DNA from: Alphaproteobacteria bacterium
GTDB taxonomy: Bacteria > Pseudomonadota > Alphaproteobacteria > Puniceispirillales > Puniceispirillaceae
Length of the DNA: 64,000 nucleotides
Direction: 5' to 3'
Assembly: GCA_016780765.1 (NCBI GenBank)
Contig: JADHLH010000003.1
Span: forward strand, 1-64,000
Shown here: in pieces, positions 8,825 through 61,864 of the stretch
Position numbering within the stretch: position 1 is the first letter of the stretch
How the letters are laid out: every line of letters starts with the position of its first letter
The notes under the pieces: generated by a model
The model's database searches: none
Told to the model about the DNA's origin: nothing
Seen by the model: only the letters and a program-made list of their open reading frames with translations
Made by a program: the position numbers and the translations under genes

Positions 8825-10177
8825 ATGTCAGACACATCACATGACGAAATGATAGCATGGCTGAATGATCAGTCGGTCACCGAGGTTGAATGCCTTGTCA
8901 GTGACATTGCCGGCATTCCGCGCGGTAAAATTCTGCCGGTGCACAAATTTATCGGTGCCGCGGCGGGGCAGGGGCTGCGCCTTCCCGAATATGTATTCGG
9001 CCAGTCGGTAACAGGTGCCTTTCTTGACAGCGAGGTGCTGAACGAGATCGGCCGGGATGTCATCCTGCGGCCCGACGCGGCCACTTGCCGGCTTGTACCG
9101 TGGTATAACGAGCCAACGGCGCAGATCATCCATGACGCCTTTGACCATGATGGCAAGATTATCGAATTCACCCCGCGCGCCGTTCTGAAGCGCGTCCTTG
9201 CGCTGTTTGAGGATGCCGGCCTGCGCCCGATCGTGGCCCCTGAGCTTGAATTCTTTCTTGTGCAGCGGAGTTCGGATGCCAACAACCCGCTGATCACGCC
9301 AAGCGGTCGTTCTGGGCGGGCAGAAAAGGCCCGTCAGGCCTATGGTATCGATGCGGTGAACGAGTTTGATCCGCTGTTTGAGGATATCTACGACCATTGT
9401 GATGTGCAGAAGATTGATATCGACACGCTGAGCCATGAAGCCGGGGCGGCGCAGATGGAGATCAACTTCAATCATGGCGAGGCGCTGAATCTTGCCGATC
9501 AGGCCTTTCTTTTCAAGCGCACGGTCCGCCAGACATCGCTGGACCACGACATTCACGCCACCTTCATGGCAAAGCCGATGCAAGAGCAGCCCGGCAGTGC
9601 GATGCATTTGCATTTGTCAGTGGTCGACATGAAGAGCGGACGAAATATCTTCGTCGATAAAGACAATAGCGAGAGCGATGCGTTCTATCACGCACTGGCC
9701 GGCATGCAGCGCTATCTGGTGGCGGCCATGCCGCTGATGGCGCCCTATGTCAATTCCTATCGCCGCCAGTCAAATTCCGAGGATTCGCCTACCAATCTGG
9801 CATGGGGCATGGATAACCGCACCGTCGGGTTGCGCGTACCCATGGGTGATCCGGCGAACCGGCGCATTGAAAACCGCATTCCGGGGGCGGATGCAAACCC
9901 GTATCTCGCGATGGCTGCCAGCCTTGCTGCCTTGTGGCTTGGCCTGCAGGAACAGCGCCGACCGACCCGTCAGCGAAAGGACAGTGGCGAGGATCTGGCC
10001 ACCTTGCCACGCAACCTTGATATCGCCCTTGATGCGCTGGAACGGACCAGCCCGCTGCATGATGTGCTGGGCGAATCCTTCGTCAAGCTGTTCATCGAGG
10101 TGAAACGCGGCGAGGCCGAGGCATTTCTGGAGGTGATCAGCCCGTGGGAAAGAGAATATCTGCTGTTGAATGTCTGA
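8825..10177 (+). CDS. Glutamine synthetase family protein (gamma-glutamylputrescine synthetase-like)
   Basis: Type I GS-like: APELEFFLV, GAAQMEINFNHGEAL, PGSAMHLHLSV, NRRIENRIPGADANPYLAMAA; follows an SpuC-like aminotransferase. Confidence 0.88.
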   Translation: MSDTSHDEMIAWLNDQSVTEVECLVSDIAGIPRGKILPVHKFIGAAAGQGLRLPEYVFGQSVTGAFLDSEVLNEIGRDVILRPDAATCRLVPWYNEPTAQIIHDAFDHDGKIIEFTPRAVLKRVLALFEDAGLRPIVAPELEFFLVQRSSDANNPLITPSGRSGRAEKARQAYGIDAVNEFDPLFEDIYDHCDVQKIDIDTLSHEAGAAQMEINFNHGEALNLADQAFLFKRTVRQTSLDHDIHATFMAKPMQEQPGSAMHLHLSVVDMKSGRNIFVDKDNSESDAFYHALAGMQRYLVAAMPLMAPYVNSYRRQSNSEDSPTNLAWGMDNRTVGLRVPMGDPANRRIENRIPGADANPYLAMAASLAALWLGLQEQRRPTRQRKDSGEDLATLPRNLDIALDALERTSPLHDVLGESFVKLFIEVKRGEAEAFLEVISPWEREYLLLNV

Positions 10178-10212
10178 ACATCAGTGTCTGAACATCAATG
10201 TCTGAACATCAA
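10171..10212 (+). repeat. Three 14-bp tandem units (tgtctgaacatcag/a) covering the stop codon of the GS gene
   Basis: tgtctgaacatcag tgtctgaacatcaa tgtctgaacatcaa read directly; stop TGA at 10175-10177. Confidence 0.95.
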
Positions 10213-10256
10213 TGTCTGGGCAGGCGCACCTGACGGCAGCCATGCCTGAATGTCGT

Positions 10257-13547: not shown

Positions 13548-13610
13548 GATGGTCCCCGCATGCTGCGCGATGCCCGGCTGATGCCCGGCTCATACCGGTT
13601 ATAAAACACA

Positions 13611-13635: not shown

Positions 13636-13665
13636 CATAATCGTCACGGCCATAATCGTCACGGC
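13636..13665. repeat. Two 15-bp tandem units (cataatcgtcacggc) about 20 bp after the SBP stop codon
   Basis: Exact direct repeat. Confidence 0.95.
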
Positions 13666-13684
13666 CATATCGTCCCGACTGGCG

Positions 13685-14461
13685 TCAGTTCGACAGCTGC
13701 CACTTGCGGCCAAGATCCTCGAAGAAACCACGCTCGGTCTTCAGGCGAATCCATGTGTTCACATAGTTGATCCATACCTGATCGCCCTGCGGCAGAAGCA
13801 TTGCAATCGGGGTCGGTGCCTTTGGTGCTGCCACCGGAACCACCATCATCTGCGGGTATTTTGCCACCAGCTTGTAGGCCTCAACATTCGAGGTGATGTG
13901 CGCATCGGCGCGGCCAGCCAGCACTTCTTGAAAGTCGCGGGCCGGGGCCTCGACGATCTTGTATTGTGCATTCGGGAAGAACTGCTTTACCTGCTTTTCC
14001 TGGGTCGTACCAAGGGTGGCGGCAACGGTCACATCGGCCTTGTCGAGATCGGCCCAGTCCTTGAACTTGTCAGCATTCTTGGTCAGCGTCAGTGGCACGG
14101 TCGCCAGTGAGAAATAGCTGTCCGTATATCCAGCCACCTTGGCACGTGCTGGCGAAATCGAGGCTGAACCTGTCATGTGGTACTTGCCGGACACAACACC
14201 GCTGACCAGCGTTTTCCAGTCGGTCGGCACGAATTCGATCTCGACGTCCAGGTCCTTTGCCAGCGCTGTCATCACATCGATGTCATAACCGGTATAAGAG
14301 TTGGTGGCCGGGTCCTTCATGGTCATCGGATTCCAGTCACCAGTTGTGCCAACCTTCAGCACGCCTGATGACAGAATGTCCTGGAGGGTTCCCTGCGCCT
14401 GAGCGGGAATGGTGGCACCGGCCAGCGCAACAACGGCAAGGGCAAGTTTGAGGAATTTCAT
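13685..14461 (-). CDS. Transporter substrate-binding protein (amino-acid-type ABC SBP)
   Basis: Signal peptide, then GVLKVGTTGDWNPMTMKDPATNSYTGYDIDVMTALAKDLDVEIEFVPTDW. Confidence 0.88.
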   Translation of the reverse strand: MKFLKLALAVVALAGATIPAQAQGTLQDILSSGVLKVGTTGDWNPMTMKDPATNSYTGYDIDVMTALAKDLDVEIEFVPTDWKTLVSGVVSGKYHMTGSASISPARAKVAGYTDSYFSLATVPLTLTKNADKFKDWADLDKADVTVAATLGTTQEKQVKQFFPNAQYKIVEAPARDFQEVLAGRADAHITSNVEAYKLVAKYPQMMVVPVAAPKAPTPIAMLLPQGDQVWINYVNTWIRLKTERGFFEDLGRKWQLSN

Positions 14462-14674: not shown

Positions 14675-15677
14675 TCAGGCGCGGAGAACTTTGGCTGCGA
14701 TCCGGCGTTCCACCATCTTGCGAAACCGCATCGCACCGGCATCGATACCCAGATTGATGTGCCGGGTCCGGCTTTCCTTCATGCCGTGATGAACTTCGGT
14801 CAGCACTTCGCGATCCTCGATAAAGGCAGTCTTTGCACCTTCAAACATCTGCCGCGAAATCTCTTCATTGTCGGGTTGCGAGTTGCGATGCTGGAACCAG
14901 AAATAGCGGGTATTGTCGGCATCAACCGGTGTCATGAAATTATACGAAATATTGATGAAGGAGTCGTCAGGCAGATTGGCGTCATCGCCGCCCGTGCCGG
15001 CGCGTGTATATATCGACATGTTGAACGCTGTCGATGGCAGGCGGCATTCGTAATGCTGTTTGTGATCGCAGTCACCGGGAAAGGGCAGGATCGGTGCATC
15101 ATGGGGCGGCGGCGCGGCATCCAGCACCCAGCGCGACACAATCACCCCATCATCCAGCTTTTCGATGTCGAGTGGCAGATTGCCGGTACCGGCACCGGCG
15201 AATGAGGACACATGCACCAAGGCCACATGTGACGCGTCCAGCAAATTATCGACGATATACAGATAGTGACAGGCGATATCCATACTGCCGCCAGCGGTGC
15301 GCCCCCATGCCGGATTGTCATAATTCTCGGGATTGTCATAATTCTCGATGGTGAAGATATCATCGGGGTTGGCAGCGTCCGCATCCCCCATCCCCCATCC
15401 ATATCCACAGAATGCCCCATCGATCAACAATGGGATATGATCTGACACGCACACCCGGTGGCGGCGCGCCGTCCTGTGTCGGGGCTTTTACGCAGGCACC
15501 GCTGCAGTCGAAGGTCAGCCCGTGATATCCGCATTCAACGCTGTCCGCTTTCAGGCGTCCCTTTGAGAGGGGCAGTTTGCGATGCGGGCAGGCATCTTCC
15601 AGCGCGGCAGGCAGCCCGGCCTCTGTACGGAAGATAACAATCGGGTCGTCAAGGATGCGCAGCGCTGTCAGGCCCTG
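14675..15677 (-). pseudogene. Vanillate O-demethylase oxygenase (VanA)-like gene: N-terminally truncated, with a frameshift from a 7-bp tandem duplication and an in-frame 18-bp duplication
   Basis: The frame upstream of about 15400 reads LTALRILDDPIVIFRTEAGLPAALEDACPHRKLPLSKGRLKADSVECGYHGLTFDCSGACVKAPTQDGAPPPGVRVRSYPIVDRWGILWIWMGD. It then shifts into ORF 14675..15454 (DADAANPDDIFTIENYDNPENYDNPAWGR...). There is no start codon in frame; TGA at 15678-15680. Confidence 0.85.
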
Positions 15678-16095
15678 TCATGGCACCCGGTGTCGTGGTC
15701 AGCTTTTCTGCATAGCGCAACAGCGCCAGTTCAGCCCTGTCAAAAACATCCTCCGGACGGCGCGCCTGAAGCGCTGTCTCAATGCGGTTTGCGCGATCAG
15801 TATCGCCGATCAGATGCGCCGCGTTCTTCCAGTGATTTGCATAGGAATAGGTGCAGTCATTCAGCACTGATACGTAAGACGCGACGGTTTCCTGAAGCCA
15901 TGCTGGCAAGGTGTTGGCATCATCATGCAGGGCAGCACGATACAGCACGACATGACCCATCATCGTGTTCGGGCGATGCGAATGGACGCGCATCACATTG
16001 TCTACCGTGCCGTGGGGTGTGCGCGCAGAATTCAACGCTGACCGCAGATCCGGTCCGGCCTCGGCATCGCCGATCACTGAAATCCAGGCTGCCAT
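15649..16095 (-). pseudogene. AhpD/carboxymuconolactone-decarboxylase-like peroxidase-related protein, C-terminally truncated
   Basis: MAAWISVIGDAEAGPDLRSALNSARTPHGTVDNVMRVHSHRP...SYVSVLNDCTYSYANHWKNAAHLI...ALLRYAEKLTTTPGAMTGPD, then an abrupt end in SAAHP* where the sequence becomes vanA-like. Confidence 0.7.
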
Positions 16096-16211: not shown

Positions 16212-17204
16212 TTGTCTGATGGCCGCCAGAAATCCGCCATGGTTGCTGGTATTTGCGTTGCGTCTGTACCGGCTGTCTGCTCAGATAGGCGGCCATCCCC
16301 CACCGCATCCAGCAAAGGGCCCAAAAAGGTGACATCAGCATCTTCTTCCACCGCGCATGGCCACCAGAAGAAAACAGGTTCAAAAAGGACCGGTCCAACA
16401 AAGACGGGTCCAACAAAGACGGGTCCAACAAAGACGGGGCCGCACGGGTCCGACAGCACGACACAGGATGATGCCTTCATTCGCATTCGGCATGTCGACA
16501 AGTTTTTTGGCAGCTTTCAGGCGCTGGATGATGTCTCTCTGGACATACGTCTTGGTCAGAAAATTGTGATTTGCGGGCCGTCCGGGTCAGGCAAGTCGAC
16601 AGCCATCCGCTGTATCAACAGGCTGGAAGCGCATGACGCTGGCGAGATTGCCATAGACGGGGTGCGCATTGATGACAGCGCGGCAGCGCGGCGGGTGCTG
16701 CGCAACAATGTCGGCATGGTGTTTCAGCAGTTCAATCTGTTTCCGCATCTCTCGATCCTCGACAATCTGACGCTGGGTCCGGTTCGCGCGCGCGGCATGG
16801 CCCCCGCCCAAGCCCGCAGTCTGGCCGAATATTATCTTGAGCGTGTGCGCATCCCCGAACAGATCGACAAGTTTCCGGGCCAGCTTTCGGGCGGCCAGCA
16901 GCAACGTGTGGCGATTGCCCGTGCGCTGTGCATGGAGCCGAAGATCATGCTGTTCGACGAGCCAACTTCAGCGCTTGATCCTGAAATGATTGCCGAGGTT
17001 CTGGAGGTTATTGAAGAGCTGGCAGGAAGCGGCATGACGATGATCTGTGTCACGCACGAGATGGGCTTTGCCGGTCACGTGGCTGACCAGATGGTGTTCA
17101 TGGATCATGGCCGGATTGTCGAAATGGCCCCGCCAAAGCAGTTCTTCTCGGCGCCGGAAAGCGAGCGCTGCCAGACCTTCCTGCGTCAGATTTTGCGGCA
17201 TTAG
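16212..17204 (+). CDS. Amino-acid ABC transporter ATP-binding protein (GlnQ-like) with a low-complexity N-terminal extension
   Basis: Walker [11 protein letters not shown]-loop [11 protein letters not shown], signature [15 protein letters not shown], Walker [12 protein letters not shown]. No in-frame ATG/GTG/TTG was found between residue 10 and the ABC domain. Confidence 0.88.
16394..16438 (+). repeat. Three 15-bp tandem units (tccaacaaagacggg) encoding TGPTK repeats
   Basis: Exact repeats; translated as [17 protein letters not shown]. Confidence 0.95.
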
Positions 17205-17210
17205 GGGGCG

Positions 17211-17963
17211 TTGATGGTATTGCAAATGCGATTGCTGCCGGTGCTGGCCACCGCGCTGTTGCTGACCGGATGTTCGGGCGACTGGGGATGGTATGTGGTG
17301 GACCCGACCAGCCCCGCCGGACAGCGCAACCTGATGTTCCTGATCGACGGGCTGTATTACACGATCGCCCTGTCGGTGACAGCGATCCTGATTTCGGTTG
17401 TTGTGGGTCTGCTGATCGCGCTGCCGGGCCTGGCCCGCGCGCGCCCGCCGCGAATCATCAACCGTGTCTATGTTGAACTGGTGCGGGCCGTCCCGATCCT
17501 TGTGCTGATCTTGTGGGTCTATTACGGGCTGCCGCAGGTTGCCGATATTGCCATTTCCATGTTCTGGGCCGGGGTGCTGGCGCTGGCCATTTCAGACAGT
17601 GCCTTTCAGGCAGAAATCTTCCGCGCCGGTATTCAGTCGATCGACCGCGGCCAGCACGAGGCGGCACATTCCATTTCGCTGTCTTATGTCGACAAGATGC
17701 GGTTCGTCATTCTGCCGCAGGCGATCAAACGCATTTTGCCAGCGCTCGGAAATCAGCTTGTCTATATGTTGAAAATGTCATCGCTGGTGTCCGTCATTGG
17801 CATGCAGGAACTGACCCGCCGGGCCAATGAACTGGTTGTGACCGAATACCGCCCGCTGGAAATCTATACCGTTCTGGTGCTGGAATATCTGGCGCTGATC
17901 CTGCTGGTATCGGCAGGTGTGCGGTGGGTTGAACGGCGGATGGGTGCCGGTGAAGCGCGATGA
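17211..17963 (+). CDS. Amino-acid ABC transporter permease (HisM/GlnP-like)
   Basis: VYVELVRAVPILVLILWVYYGLP; EAA-like EAAHSISLSYVDKMRFVILPQAIKRILPALGNQ. Confidence 0.9.
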   Translation: MMVLQMRLLPVLATALLLTGCSGDWGWYVVDPTSPAGQRNLMFLIDGLYYTIALSVTAILISVVVGLLIALPGLARARPPRIINRVYVELVRAVPILVLILWVYYGLPQVADIAISMFWAGVLALAISDSAFQAEIFRAGIQSIDRGQHEAAHSISLSYVDKMRFVILPQAIKRILPALGNQLVYMLKMSSLVSVIGMQELTRRANELVVTEYRPLEIYTVLVLEYLALILLVSAGVRWVERRMGAGEAR

Positions 17964-23278: not shown

Positions 23279-23853
23279 AGCTGGGCGCCTTTTTCATCGA
23301 AATCCTGCCTTTGCTGGCCTTTTTCGCAGGCTATCAGTATTTCGGGCTGCTGATGGCTGCGGCCTTGTCAGCGATATTGGGGGCGGGCGTGTTGCTTCTT
23401 GCGCGATGGCGCGACGGACGTATCGCCGCCTTTCCCCTGTTTTCGGTTGTCATGTCCGGCCTGTTCACGGCCATTGCCTGGGGGCTTGATGACGGCATTT
23501 TCATCAAGGTCCAGCCGACAATATTCAACGGGTTGTTTGCAACTGTCCTGCTGGGAGGGCTGGTCATGCGCCGCGCCATGATGCGGCAGTTTTTCGGCGC
23601 CCAGTTTTCGCTGACAGATGCGACCTGGTTCACGCTCAGCTTTCGCTGGGGGTGCTTTTTTCTGCTGCTGGCCATCGCCAATGAATGTGTCTGGCGATTG
23701 TTCACCGAGGCCGAATGGGTGACCTACAAGACATTCATCGCCGCGCCGGCAAGTGGTGCTTTCATGCTGGCACAGCTGCCGCTGACTTTACGCGGGCGGA
23801 TCAATTCTGCCGACAATTCTGCCGACAATTCTGCCGACAAATCTGACGGATGA
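23275..23853 (+). CDS. Inner-membrane-spanning YciB/IspZ (septation protein A)-like
   Basis: KLGAFFIEILPLLAFFAGYQYFG, GGLVMRRAMMRQFFGAQFSLTDATWFTLSFRWGCFFLLLAIANECVWR; GTG start at 23275. Confidence 0.85.
   Translation: MKLGAFFIEILPLLAFFAGYQYFGLLMAAALSAILGAGVLLLARWRDGRIAAFPLFSVVMSGLFTAIAWGLDDGIFIKVQPTIFNGLFATVLLGGLVMRRAMMRQFFGAQFSLTDATWFTLSFRWGCFFLLLAIANECVWRLFTEAEWVTYKTFIAAPASGAFMLAQLPLTLRGRINSADNSADNSADKSDG
23803..23838 (+). repeat. Three 12-bp tandem units (aattctgccgac) at the 3' end of the yciB-like gene
   Basis: Encodes NSADNSADNSAD immediately before KSDG*. Confidence 0.95.
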
Positions 23854-29587: not shown

Positions 29588-30937
29588 ATGTCATCCGACG
29601 CGCCCGAAACTGCTGCCCGGCCGCTGATCCGCAACCTGCGTCTGGGTCTGCTGACTGTTGCCTGGGGCGCAGCACTCGTGACCATTCTGTCGGGCCAGGC
29701 GCATGGCATTACAGCGACGTGCGGGGCTGCGGCGCTGGGCCTGTTCATTCTTCTGACATTGCCGCGTCTGCGCCGTGACAGCCTGATCATCCTGGCAATG
29801 CTGGGCGTTGTCATGCTGTTCATTCTGGATGATGTGCCAAGCCTTGAAGATATGACCCGCGGCGGTGAACGTGTGCTGATCTTTGCGGCATTGTTGCCGA
29901 CAATGGCGCTGGTTCGTGCCACGGCCATGACGATGCCGTCGGTTCACGCCACGCAGGAACGCCTTGGACGTTTGCCTGCGGTTGCGTCAGCAGGCGGGCT
30001 GCAGCTGGCTGCGCACGTGTTTGGCGGTATCATAAACACCGGCGCGTTCGCTCTCTTATCAGCGGCCCTGCCACCTGACAGCGATACGCATCGAAGGCGC
30101 ATTGCCGCCGAAGCCGCCATCCGCGGGATGGTAGTTTCATCCGCCTGGTCGCCGTTTTTTGTAGCATTCGCCATTGGCCAGATATTTGTGGCACCTGCCT
30201 ATGCGTGGATGGCCATTGCGCTGGGAACGGTGTCAGCATTCCTGTTCATGGTGGTGACCATCGTCGGGTTGCATCGCGGCTTCAAGGGCACCGAACTGCG
30301 TCAGTCGCTGGCCTGTTTGGGCCCGGTGGCAAGCCGGCTGGCGGCGGTGCTGGCAGCGGTATTGGTGGTGGCGGTGGGACTGGAACTTACCGCACTGTCC
30401 GCCGTGGTGACGGTGATGCCGTTGCTGGTGCTGATACAGATGCTGCGGCACCGTGAGAAGGTTACAGTCATCATTGCCGATACGTGCGATGCCATGAACA
30501 AGACAGCCGATGACATCGTGGTGATCACGGCGGCTATGCTGGTGGCGTTTTTTGCCATAAGTTCAGCCAGTCTTGCCTCAATGGTGGCGGGTATCTACAG
30601 CGATGTGATTCCGGGCTGGATTGCCTTGCCCGCCGTGCCGATCATGATGATGTTGCTATCGGTGATTGGCATCCATCCGGTGATTACCAGCACCACATTG
30701 CTGGCGATCTTCAGTGGCGGCGGGGCGGATGTGCATCCGGCATTGCTCGTGCAGGCGCATCTGGTTGGCTGGGGGGCAGGCACGATGAGTTCGGTTGCAT
30801 CGCTATCGGTGCTCAGCTGCGCCACCCTGTACCGTGTGCCAACGCGCCAGCTGGTTTTCGGTGCCAATATCATCAGCGGGTTTGGCTATGCGGTTGTGGG
30901 CGGTGTGGGCCTCGCTCTCATCAATATGCTGATCTGA
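29588..30937 (+). CDS. Polytopic membrane protein, putative permease of unassigned family
   Basis: About 11-12 predicted hydrophobic segments over 449 aa; internal PVITSTTLLAIFSGGGADVHPALLVQAHLVGWGAG. Confidence 0.6.
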   Translation: MSSDAPETAARPLIRNLRLGLLTVAWGAALVTILSGQAHGITATCGAAALGLFILLTLPRLRRDSLIILAMLGVVMLFILDDVPSLEDMTRGGERVLIFAALLPTMALVRATAMTMPSVHATQERLGRLPAVASAGGLQLAAHVFGGIINTGAFALLSAALPPDSDTHRRRIAAEAAIRGMVVSSAWSPFFVAFAIGQIFVAPAYAWMAIALGTVSAFLFMVVTIVGLHRGFKGTELRQSLACLGPVASRLAAVLAAVLVVAVGLELTALSAVVTVMPLLVLIQMLRHREKVTVIIADTCDAMNKTADDIVVITAAMLVAFFAISSASLASMVAGIYSDVIPGWIALPAVPIMMMLLSVIGIHPVITSTTLLAIFSGGGADVHPALLVQAHLVGWGAGTMSSVASLSVLSCATLYRVPTRQLVFGANIISGFGYAVVGGVGLALINMLI

Positions 30938-30985
30938 ATGCTGATCTGAATGCTGATCTGAATGATGGTCTGAATGATGGTCTGA
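30926..30985 (+). repeat. Five 12-bp tandem units (3x atgctgatctga, 2x atgatggtctga) starting at the final codons plus stop
   Basis: ATG CTG ATC TGA (Met-Leu-Ile-stop) is the end of the preceding gene and is reiterated in frame. Confidence 0.97.
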
Positions 30986-31069
30986 CATGCGCTGTCAGGG
31001 ATTTCGGTGCTGACTTGAACGCTGGCCGTATTTTCTGCATGCTGGTGATAACGCAGGGAGGAGGTTCTT

Positions 31070-57421: not shown

Positions 57422-59056
57422 ATGTATGTATCTGCACATTCCGACAGTTTCTCGCGTGATAATCTGCCCGCCGCGTCGGACTGGCCAGACCTGCTGACTG
57501 ACGGTTTTGATTATGGTGAACGTTTGAACGCAGGTGTCGAGCTGACCGATGCCATGGTGGATCGCGGCTTTGGTGATGCTGTGGCGCTGATCGGCAACGG
57601 GCGGCAGCGCACCTACAAGGAGCTGGCCGACTGGACCAACAGGCTGGCGCATGCGCTGGTTGATGATCTCAAGATCAAGCCCGGCAATCGGGTGCTGATC
57701 CGGTCGGCGAACAATCCGGCGATGGTTGCCTGCTGGATTGCCGCGACCAAGGTTGGTGCGGTCGTGATAAATACCATGCCGCTGCTGCGGGCTGGCGAGC
57801 TGGCCAAATATGTGGACAAGGCCGAGATATCACACGCGCTGTGCGATACAAGACTGATGGATGAGCTGACAGCCTGCGCCAAGACCAGCGCGTGGCTGAA
57901 GACAGTTGTCGGGTTTGACGGCACCGCCAATCACGATGCCGAACTGGACAGGCTGGCCCTGTCCAAACCGGTGCGTTTTGATGCTGTTGAAACGGCATCG
58001 GATGATGTGGCACTGATCGGCTTTACCTCCGGGTCAACGGGTGAGCCGAAAGGCACGATGCATTTTCATCGCGATCTGATGATCATTGCCGATGGCTATG
58101 CGCGTGAGGTGCTGAAGGTGACGCCGGATGATATTTTCATTGGGTCACCGCCGCTGGCCTTCACCTTCGGGCTGGGCGGACTGGCCGTGTTCCCGCTGCG
58201 GTTTGGTGCCACCGCCATTCTTCTGGAGAATGCCACACCGCCACATCTGGTCGAGATGATTGAGACCTATAAGGCAACTGTCTGCTTTACAGCGCCTACA
58301 GCTTACCGGGTGATGCTGGCGGCGATGGATGAGGGGGCTGATCTTGGCTCTCTGCGGGCTGCTGTATCGGCTGGCGAGACATTGCCAGCCCCGGTCTATA
58401 GTGACTGGATGGCAAAAACCGGCAAGCCAATGCTGGACGGCATCGGGGCCACAGAATTGCTGCATATCTTCATCAGCAACCGCTTCGATGATCATGCGCC
58501 CGCCAGTACCGGCAGGCCGGTTCATGGGTATGAAGCAAAGATTATTGGACCTGACGGTGCGCCCCTTCCCGATGGTGAAGTGGGCCGGCTGGCGGTGCGC
58601 GGGCCAACCGGCTGTCGTTATCTGCGCGGTGAACGCCAGCAGGAATATGTGGCCGGTGGGTGGAACATCACTGGTGACAGTTTTTCACGCGATGAGAACG
58701 GATATTTTCACTTTGCCGCACGGAATGACGATATGATCATTTCGTCAGGCTATAACATCGCCGGCCCCGAGGTAGAGGCAGCGTTGCTGTCACATGAGGC
58801 GGTTGCAGAATGTGCGGTGATAGGTGTGCCGGATGAAGAGCGCGGGGCGATTGTCGAGGCGCATGTGGTGCTGCGCGGCGACATGACCGGGGATGCGCAG
58901 ACCGGGGATGCGCAGATGATCAAGGCCCTGCAAGACCACGTAAAGGCAACCATCGCGCCGCATAAATATCCGCGTGTGGTCATGTTCACTGATGCGCTGC
59001 CAAAGACCGAGACCGGAAAAATCCAGCGGTTTCGTCTGAAGCAGACGGCGGGCTAG
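57422..59056 (+). CDS. AMP-dependent acyl-CoA ligase (benzoate/2-aminobenzoate-CoA ligase-like)
   Basis: FTSGSTGEPKGTMHFHRD; IGATELLHIFISNR; NDDMIISSGYNIAGPEVEAALLSHEAV; KTETGKIQRFRL. Confidence 0.92.
   Translation: MYVSAHSDSFSRDNLPAASDWPDLLTDGFDYGERLNAGVELTDAMVDRGFGDAVALIGNGRQRTYKELADWTNRLAHALVDDLKIKPGNRVLIRSANNPAMVACWIAATKVGAVVINTMPLLRAGELAKYVDKAEISHALCDTRLMDELTACAKTSAWLKTVVGFDGTANHDAELDRLALSKPVRFDAVETASDDVALIGFTSGSTGEPKGTMHFHRDLMIIADGYAREVLKVTPDDIFIGSPPLAFTFGLGGLAVFPLRFGATAILLENATPPHLVEMIETYKATVCFTAPTAYRVMLAAMDEGADLGSLRAAVSAGETLPAPVYSDWMAKTGKPMLDGIGATELLHIFISNRFDDHAPASTGRPVHGYEAKIIGPDGAPLPDGEVGRLAVRGPTGCRYLRGERQQEYVAGGWNITGDSFSRDENGYFHFAARNDDMIISSGYNIAGPEVEAALLSHEAVAECAVIGVPDEERGAIVEAHVVLRGDMTGDAQTGDAQMIKALQDHVKATIAPHKYPRVVMFTDALPKTETGKIQRFRLKQTAG
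58886..58915 (+). repeat. Two 15-bp tandem units (accggggatgcgcag) in the ligase gene
   Basis: Encodes TGDAQTGDAQ. Confidence 0.95.
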
Positions 59057-59065
59057 GGGGCGGTC

Positions 59066-61864
59066 ATGGCGCAAAAAAAACCACTTCGCATCAGCATAAT
59101 CGGCGCTGGGCCGGCTGGTCTCTACACCGCTATTCTGGCGCGCCAGCATCTTGGTGATGCTGTGATCGAGGTGATTGAGCAGAACCCGAAAGGGGCCACT
59201 TTCGGCTTTGGCGTGGTCTTTTCAGACAAGGCCCTGGATTTTCTGTCTGCCGGCGACCCGCAAACAGTGGCTGACCTCGACCCGTGGATGGAACGCTGGG
59301 ACAATATGACCCTGAACCACCCCGACGGGCGGGTTGTTCTTGACGGGATTGGCTTCAGCGCGATCGGGCGGTTGAAATTGCTGCAGCTGCTGGAAGCGCG
59401 GGCGGCTGATCTGGGGGTAAATATTACCTATGACAGGGCCATTGATGATCCGGACAAGCTCAAGGCGGATGTTATCATTGGCGCGGATGGACTGAACTCG
59501 GTGGTACGCCGGGCCAACGAGGCCGGTTTTTCCCCCACCATCGACCATTTTACAAACCACTTTGCCTGGTTCGGCAGTGATGGAGTGTTTGATACGCTGA
59601 CCCAGAGTTTTATCCATACCGAACACGGTCCGATGAATGCGCATCACTATCGCTATGCCCCTGATCGCAGCACATTTATTGTTGAATGCGGGCCGCAGAC
59701 ATGGGCGGCGCATGGCTTCGATACGATGGACGAAGATGACAGTGCAGCCCGATGTGCCGATCTGTTCCGTGACGTTCTTGGCGGTGCGCGTCTGGTGACC
59801 AACAAATCTGCCTGGCGGGTGTTTCCGCGGCTGTGGTGTGCAGGCTGGGTTGCCGGACGGCAGGTGATATTGGGTGATGCGGCGCACACATCGCATTTTT
59901 CGATCGGATCGGGAACAAGGCTTGCAATGGAAGATGCGATTGCGCTTGTTCAGGCACTGGCAGCGCATGAGGACGTGCCAACGGCGCTTGCCGCCTATCA
60001 GGATGCACGCCTGCCTGTTGCCCGGAAAATTGTTACGGCGGCCAATACGTCGGCGCGCTGGTATGATGATTTTGGTGCGCATATGCAACTGCCACCGCTG
60101 GATTTTGCTTATGGATATCTGACCCGGTCCGGCCGCATGACGCCGGCGCGGGCACGCCGCCTGGCGCCAGCCTTCATGGCGGAATATGACGCGGCAACGC
60201 TTGCCGCAACGCAAGATCAGGTGCCGGCATCGCTGCCAGGTTCTGATGCGATCGGCTTTGATCGTGCGGCGCATGCCAATTGTTCGGCAATCCTGTGGGA
60301 CAATCTGCAACGCAACCCTCATAAGCTGGCAATTATTTGCAAGACGGGCATCGGCGAGATGGGGGATGTCACCTATGCCGAACTGATCGCGCAGGCGGCA
60401 CAGTGGGGTAACGCCTTCATCGCTGCCGGCCTTCAACGCGGCGACCGCATTCCCTTCTTTCTGGATGATACGCCGTCCTATCCGGCGGCATTTTTCGGGG
60501 CGGTTCGCGCCGGCTTTGTGCCGGTATTGCTGAACACCCAGACGAATGCCGATACGCTGTCCTATTTCCTTGGTGATACCGAGGCGCGGATCGTGCTGTG
60601 CGAGGCGGCGTTCCTGTCATCCTTCCCGCCTGACATGCTGGCCCACAGCAGTGTCGAACAGCTTGTCGTTGTGAATGGTGATGCGGATGAAGACGGGCAT
60701 ATCTCGCAGCAGGATTTTCTGGCCGATCAACCGCTCACGCTGGACTGCGCCAATACAACGCCCGGTGACATGGCGTTCTGGATGTATTCGTCGGGAACGA
60801 CCGGACGGCCAAAGGGCATTGTCCATCTGCATCATGATATGGCCTACACGCAGCAATCCTATGGCCGGCAGGTGCTGGGAATTACCGCTGATGACATATG
60901 TTTTTCTGTGCCAAAGATCTTTTTTGCCTATGGGTTTGGCAATTCCATTACCTTTCCTTTTTCGGTTGGCGCCACCTCTGTGCTGTTGCCGGGCCGCCCC
61001 GATCCGGCAACGATTTTCGACACGATAGAACGCTGTCGGCCAAGCCTGTTTTTTGGACTGCCGACACTTTATACCGCTTTGTGCAGCGCCGACGGTGCTG
61101 GCGCGCGTGACCTGTCCTCGATCCGCCGATCAGTCTCGGCAGCCGAAACCTTGAGCCAGGATATCTATGATGCGTGGAAGGGGCTGTGCGGGCATGGCCC
61201 AACCGAGGGGCTGGGGTCAACCGAATTGCTGCATATTTATCTGTCCAACCATCCGGATGATCACCGCGTTGGCGCCGCTGGCGCCCCGGTGCCGGGTTAT
61301 GAGGTGCAACTGCAGCGCCTTGACGGCAGTCCTGCATCTCCGGGCGAGGATGGTGTGATGATGGTGCGCGGCGATTCATCGACGCCCTGCTATTGGCGAC
61401 GTGCCGACAAGACAGCAGAGACAATGCGCGATGGCTGGATCTATACCGGTGACCGGTTTATCGAGCGCGATGGCTATTACTATTTTCAGGGCCGCGCCGA
61501 TGATCTGATCAAGGTGTCCGGGCAATGGGTCTGGCCTCTTGAAATAGAGCGCTGCCTGAATGAACAAGATGACGTCACTGAATGCGCTGTGCTGGCGCAT
61601 CAGCTTGCCGACGGGCGGATGACTTTGCGAGCGGTGGTTGCGCTGCGTGACGGAATGCCTGGCGATGATGCCACAACAAGGCGTCTTCAGGACTTTGTGC
61701 GGGGCGAGCTGATGCCGTTCAAATATCCGCGGATTGTAGAATACACCGCATCCTTGCCAAAGACCGGCACAGGGAAGATTGACCGGCAAGCCCTGCAAAA
61801 AGATTCACTGCAAAAAGATTCACCGCAAAAAGATTCACCGCAAAACAGTGGAGCGGTGGCCTGA
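59066..61864 (+). CDS. 932-aa fusion: salicylyl-CoA-5-hydroxylase-like FAD monooxygenase (N) plus benzoate/salicylate-CoA-ligase-like domain (C)
   Basis: N: IIGAGPAGLYTAILARQH...FGFGVVFSD...[42 protein letters not shown]...GLGSTELLHIYLSN...RADDLIKVSGQWVWPLEIERCL...KTGTGKIDRQAL. Continuous ORF. Confidence 0.93.
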   Translation: MAQKKPLRISIIGAGPAGLYTAILARQHLGDAVIEVIEQNPKGATFGFGVVFSDKALDFLSAGDPQTVADLDPWMERWDNMTLNHPDGRVVLDGIGFSAIGRLKLLQLLEARAADLGVNITYDRAIDDPDKLKADVIIGADGLNSVVRRANEAGFSPTIDHFTNHFAWFGSDGVFDTLTQSFIHTEHGPMNAHHYRYAPDRSTFIVECGPQTWAAHGFDTMDEDDSAARCADLFRDVLGGARLVTNKSAWRVFPRLWCAGWVAGRQVILGDAAHTSHFSIGSGTRLAMEDAIALVQALAAHEDVPTALAAYQDARLPVARKIVTAANTSARWYDDFGAHMQLPPLDFAYGYLTRSGRMTPARARRLAPAFMAEYDAATLAATQDQVPASLPGSDAIGFDRAAHANCSAILWDNLQRNPHKLAIICKTGIGEMGDVTYAELIAQAAQWGNAFIAAGLQRGDRIPFFLDDTPSYPAAFFGAVRAGFVPVLLNTQTNADTLSYFLGDTEARIVLCEAAFLSSFPPDMLAHSSVEQLVVVNGDADEDGHISQQDFLADQPLTLDCANTTPGDMAFWMYSSGTTGRPKGIVHLHHDMAYTQQSYGRQVLGITADDICFSVPKIFFAYGFGNSITFPFSVGATSVLLPGRPDPATIFDTIERCRPSLFFGLPTLYTALCSADGAGARDLSSIRRSVSAAETLSQDIYDAWKGLCGHGPTEGLGSTELLHIYLSNHPDDHRVGAAGAPVPGYEVQLQRLDGSPASPGEDGVMMVRGDSSTPCYWRRADKTAETMRDGWIYTGDRFIERDGYYYFQGRADDLIKVSGQWVWPLEIERCLNEQDDVTECAVLAHQLADGRMTLRAVVALRDGMPGDDATTRRLQDFVRGELMPFKYPRIVEYTASLPKTGTGKIDRQALQKDSLQKDSPQKDSPQNSGAVA
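61793..61837 (+). repeat. Three 15-bp tandem units (ctgcaaaaagattca) plus partial fourth at the 3' end of the fusion gene
   Basis: Encodes LQKDSLQKDSPQKDSPQNSG. Confidence 0.95.

Follow-up and report, generated by a model that had tools for sequence, protein, structure and literature searches.

Probable inactivation by deletion of a conserved three-gene catabolic block next to an amino-acid-type ABC transporter in a SAR116-type bacterium

Results

The window, that is, the whole stretch of DNA analysed here, covers bases 1-64000 (GC content 0.58) of one 66.4 kb contig in an incomplete SAR116-type MAG, whose draft genome amounts to 2.25 Mb in 124 contigs and is 82% complete. On the minus strand, an ahpD-like remnant (peroxidase-related, TIGR01926-type; 15649..16095) is followed by the N-terminal part (15390..15671) and the C-terminal part (14675..15391) of a vanA-like gene. 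These broken genes adjoin a gene for a periplasmic amino-acid-type substrate-binding protein (13685..14461, minus strand). On the other side, the plus strand encodes a divergent ABC transporter ATPase, the true start of which is uncertain (16453..17204), and an ABC transporter permease (17211..17963). All three transporter genes are intact and constrained. At the N-terminus of the ATPase or just before it, we noticed an array of four 15-bp repeats (GGTCCAACAAAGACG, 16377-16438), whose translation, if any, would yield GPTKT several times in a row; the congener ATPases look shorter there.

Three-frame translation confirmed the initial annotation, in which an AhpD-like protein ended abruptly and a vanA frame lacked a start codon while its Rieske motif was intact. 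The ahpD-like remnant retains its start codon and first ~142 codons and runs from the ATG at 16095 through about six foreign codons to a TGA at 15651-15649, giving a protein of 148 aa with the C-terminal end TTTPGAMTGPDSAAHP. Some 44-49 C-terminal residues are gone, and the C-terminal segment EANQIICYFNYVNRSINGLGV, which is conserved in the congener AhpD, is missing. Whereas the intact congener protein scores 94.9 bits against TIGR01926, a peroxidase-related/carboxymuconolactone-decarboxylase-like family with a curated cut-off of 81.8, the truncated window protein reaches 56 bits and stays below this cut-off. The second Cys of the AhpD-type CxxC is a Ser in the AhpD-like sequences read here.

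The vanA frame is preceded by a TGA at 15680-15678 and continues with QGLTALRILDDPIVIFRTEAG; no ATG, GTG or TTG is present at its opening and the first ~25 residues are missing, while the Rieske [2Fe-2S] motif CPHRK...CGYHG (CxH...CxxH) is intact. Pfam searches assigned a Rieske domain (PF00355, E 2.3e-19) to the middle piece and a VanA_C domain (PF19112, E 2.9e-41) to the last piece, which lies in a third frame and stops at 14675. The window thus keeps both domains of the VanA-type Rieske non-heme iron oxygenases, but in two different frames, whereas the congener protein carries them in a single intact chain. No VanA equivalog was present among the NCBIfam matches and we identified no reductase of the vanB type, so the enzyme need not be a vanillate O-demethylase. 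The genome, at 82% completeness, contains no second copy of vanA and, in the case of ahpD, only a 34% paralogue.

Searches and alignment located the AhpD and VanA pieces, with 73-89% protein identity and in the same order, in seven congeners (G001, G002, G003, G004, G006, G007 and G010), a recurrence that excludes chance for this observation. In all seven, the ahpD-like gene, a gene that we refer to as X and the gene for the Rieske/VanA_C oxygenase are consecutive and intact at the same syntenic position, coding for proteins of 191, 396 and 350 aa, respectively, in G001. The flanks align on both sides of the locus in each of these genomes, and 1372-1479 bp of congener sequence are missing from the window, comprising the 3' end of ahpD, the whole of gene X and vanA codons 1 to ~25. 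At the junction (15671..15681, minus strand; the exact base is uncertain by a few nt), ahpD codon ~142 is joined out of frame to vanA codon ~26. The initial annotation had proposed a deletion of the AhpD C-terminus and the VanA N-terminus, to be checked against relatives; the seven intact orthologous loci support this proposal and reveal that gene X was also taken, so that ahpD and vanA were not adjacent before the deletion. Within the genome, at its 82% completeness, nothing matched gene X. None of the three genes was seen in congeners G005, G008, G009 and G011, all four of which have incomplete genomes, and no further strain of the window's species was found.

A deletion between long direct repeats was considered and rejected: the two breakpoints share no word of more than 7 bp in any congener, and ALR-coding stretches, which are similar, do not fit the exact junction. 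Because the breakpoints lack a long repeat in extant relatives, the event would best be called an illegitimate deletion. The same property bears on the idea of an assembly artefact, in which the contig would connect separate sites within a strain-variable region, or collapse that region, and the true genome would be intact. The fragmentation of the MAG speaks for such a fault, as does the reading of the locus from a single draft contig of an 82% complete genome, and tandem duplications of 7-18 bp may also come from local assembly errors. However, since no long direct repeat links the breakpoints, a k-mer assembler would have no obvious cause to jump, and gene order is shared with G001 over ~45 kb around the broken locus, with collinear and intact flanking genes. 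Moreover, the two independent lesions and five substitutions at near-fixed residues described below are more readily explained by biological decay than by a single assembly fault. We consider an assembly error unlikely; the contig might also represent a minority allele.

The loss of the vanA frame, placed at 15383-15400 by the initial annotation, was confirmed and located to 15382..15400 on the minus strand, where a 7-bp tandem duplication (GGGGATG, 2.7 copies), found in no congener, shifts the frame. At 15312..15347 on the same strand, an 18-bp perfect tandem duplication encodes ENYDNP twice and leaves the frame unchanged. In the alignment, neither insertion occurs in any of the 81 homologues. 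Perfect tandem duplications are typical of replication slippage. In addition, the C-terminal part of the vanA remnant carries the substitutions P163A, W168L, Y207H, Y208D and R220H (G001 numbering), all at residues kept in at least 80 of the 81 homologues. The window departs at 5/98 positions at which no fewer than 98.5% of the other sequences agree, the top count among 82 sequences, 63 of which have no such deviation; the count was also zero in the six congeners checked. A smaller comparison with G006 yielded a weak difference (8 versus 4 changes). The further lesions suspected from the sequence are thus borne out by the frameshifting and in-frame duplications and by the five altered near-invariant VanA residues.

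These lesions need to be weighed against a functional remodelling of the locus, according to which translation of the pieces would persist through re-initiation at the overlapping stop and a frameshift within the 7-bp repeat, or that repeat would serve as an on/off switch. Coupled re-initiation is conceivable, as the opening of the vanA frame overlaps the AhpD stop codon; reversible slippage is possible for 7-bp tandem repeats, and the iron-ligand region (D..H....H) is as unchanged as the Rieske motif. On the other hand, such a product would begin in a frame without any of the usual start codons and without its first ~25 residues, its AhpD partner would lack the conserved C-terminal segment, and the substitutions affect residues that are nearly fixed among homologues. 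A functional fusion was also sought among the relatives, and none of those examined has the arrangement. Remodelling therefore appears very improbable to us, and we regard the ahpD and vanA remnants as probably non-functional.

The damage seems to be confined to this locus. Among ~57 genes with orthologue-like matches between G001 and 419 kb of the genome, no other convincing broken gene was found, and general genome decay was rejected, as the other flagged genes, when inspected, had their stops or altered frames solely where an ORF start or end had been over-extended (G001/G000). The VanA_C remnant itself has a pairwise dN/dS of ~0.08, similar to that of the intact neighbours.

As a separate observation, perfect tandem duplications with a period of 11-20 bp are more frequent here (41 in 419 kb) than in congeners (23 in 571 kb), with a rate ratio of 2.4 and a two-sided binomial P of 0.0006; this count was prompted by the sight of the window, which is itself enriched, and P is 0.014 when the window is left out. 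Examples in the window are found at 10169-10218, 13569-13590, 13636-13674, 16377-16438, 23802-23845, 30926-30990, 58885-58916 and 61795-61845, and others in G000 loci L169-L188. A mutator phenotype through loss of mutS or polA was rejected, as both genes are present and open.

Gene X codes for a protein of ~375-400 aa in the congeners (for example L045:6586-7773 in G001 and L060:6455-7648), for which sequence searches gave no Pfam, NCBIfam or PDB match. The structure model of a congener protein (pLDDT 77.6) resembles NicX, a 2,5-dihydroxypyridine 5,6-dioxygenase (PDB 7cn3), with a Foldseek E value of 8.5e-14, a probability of 1.00 and a TM score of 0.51-0.58, and, more weakly, M29/PepS-type aminopeptidases. 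X is therefore predicted to have a NicX-type fold, at only 13% sequence identity. Conserved His motifs in X read HSWHxGxHP and HxHTCG. In NicX, the Fe(II) ligands are H265, S302, H318 and D320 (PMC7910607).

We surveyed 80 alphaproteobacterial loci around close VanA relatives, within the fetched flanks. Of these, 68 contain X, 46 contain an AhpD homologue and 53 contain homologues of both the binding protein and the permease; X was also present in 34/35 loci whose binding protein is more than 55% identical. By these co-occurrence counts, the three enzymes and this transporter form a recurrent module. The module genes from Ruegeria and Seohaeicola include one for a creatininase-family-like amidohydrolase, which was recognised by eye (MRLD..TWPEVE..PVGSTEQHGPMG; L075:4086-4820 and L077:10835-11560) and might provide an additional pathway step.

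Discussion

Taken together, we propose, with a probability of roughly 0.88, that, in this lineage, the conserved block of three catabolic genes alongside the amino-acid-type ABC transporter was inactivated by a deletion and further decay. A single illegitimate deletion of ~1.4 kb joined ahpD codon ~142 and vanA codon ~26 out of frame. Short-repeat slippage, which we infer from the duplications seen in vanA, would have added the frameshifting 7-bp and the in-frame 18-bp insertion, and the vanA remnant has started to gather changes at otherwise fixed residues. The inactivation was probably recent relative to the divergence from the congeners, because most of the remnant keeps the signature of purifying selection, the dN/dS of its VanA_C part still being as low as in the intact neighbours, and because the transporter is intact. 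As the flanking genes are intact and no other gene is convincingly broken, a local, recent pseudogenisation, rather than general decay or a functional fusion, is probably the right description.

An intact syntenic orthologue is present in 7/7 congeners with the locus and the frame is lost twice, by the out-of-frame junction and by the 7-bp frameshift, as is found for pseudogenes. Known cases of pseudogene formation by deletion likewise show two stumps out of frame and later small indels, with intact relatives. They also show relaxed constraint, for which the signs at our locus are mixed, with five changes at near-invariant residues and a dN/dS of still ~0.08. Our locus does not differ from these in kind; what stands out is that the gene in between was lost entirely and that the surroundings are otherwise intact. 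It represents ordinary gene decay caught in the act, and the correct annotation would be two pseudogene ORFs and not a fusion.

The intact module probably imports a small compound, N-heterocyclic or aromatic in nature, and breaks it down by oxidation and opening of the ring. A search of the literature on homarine and pyridine catabolism found no open paper that names the module, and one text links homarine to Mgd and not to the module's genes (PMC13390433). Gene X is widespread in Alphaproteobacteria, where it neighbours the genes for Rieske/VanA_C oxygenases and for an ABC transporter of the amino-acid type, and appears to represent an uncharacterised family. More tentatively, one might speculate that the intact locus encodes a so far uncharacterised pathway that is widespread among marine Alphaproteobacteria and degrades a transported N-heterocyclic compound, and that its enzymes were lost only lately in this lineage, the transporter being kept. 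The broken locus points to a module of marine Alphaproteobacteria in which oxygenase and transporter are linked; this module is conserved, appears to be uncharacterised and has a middle protein without a Pfam family. A lineage that retains the importer without the enzymes would be a natural knockout for substrate searches.
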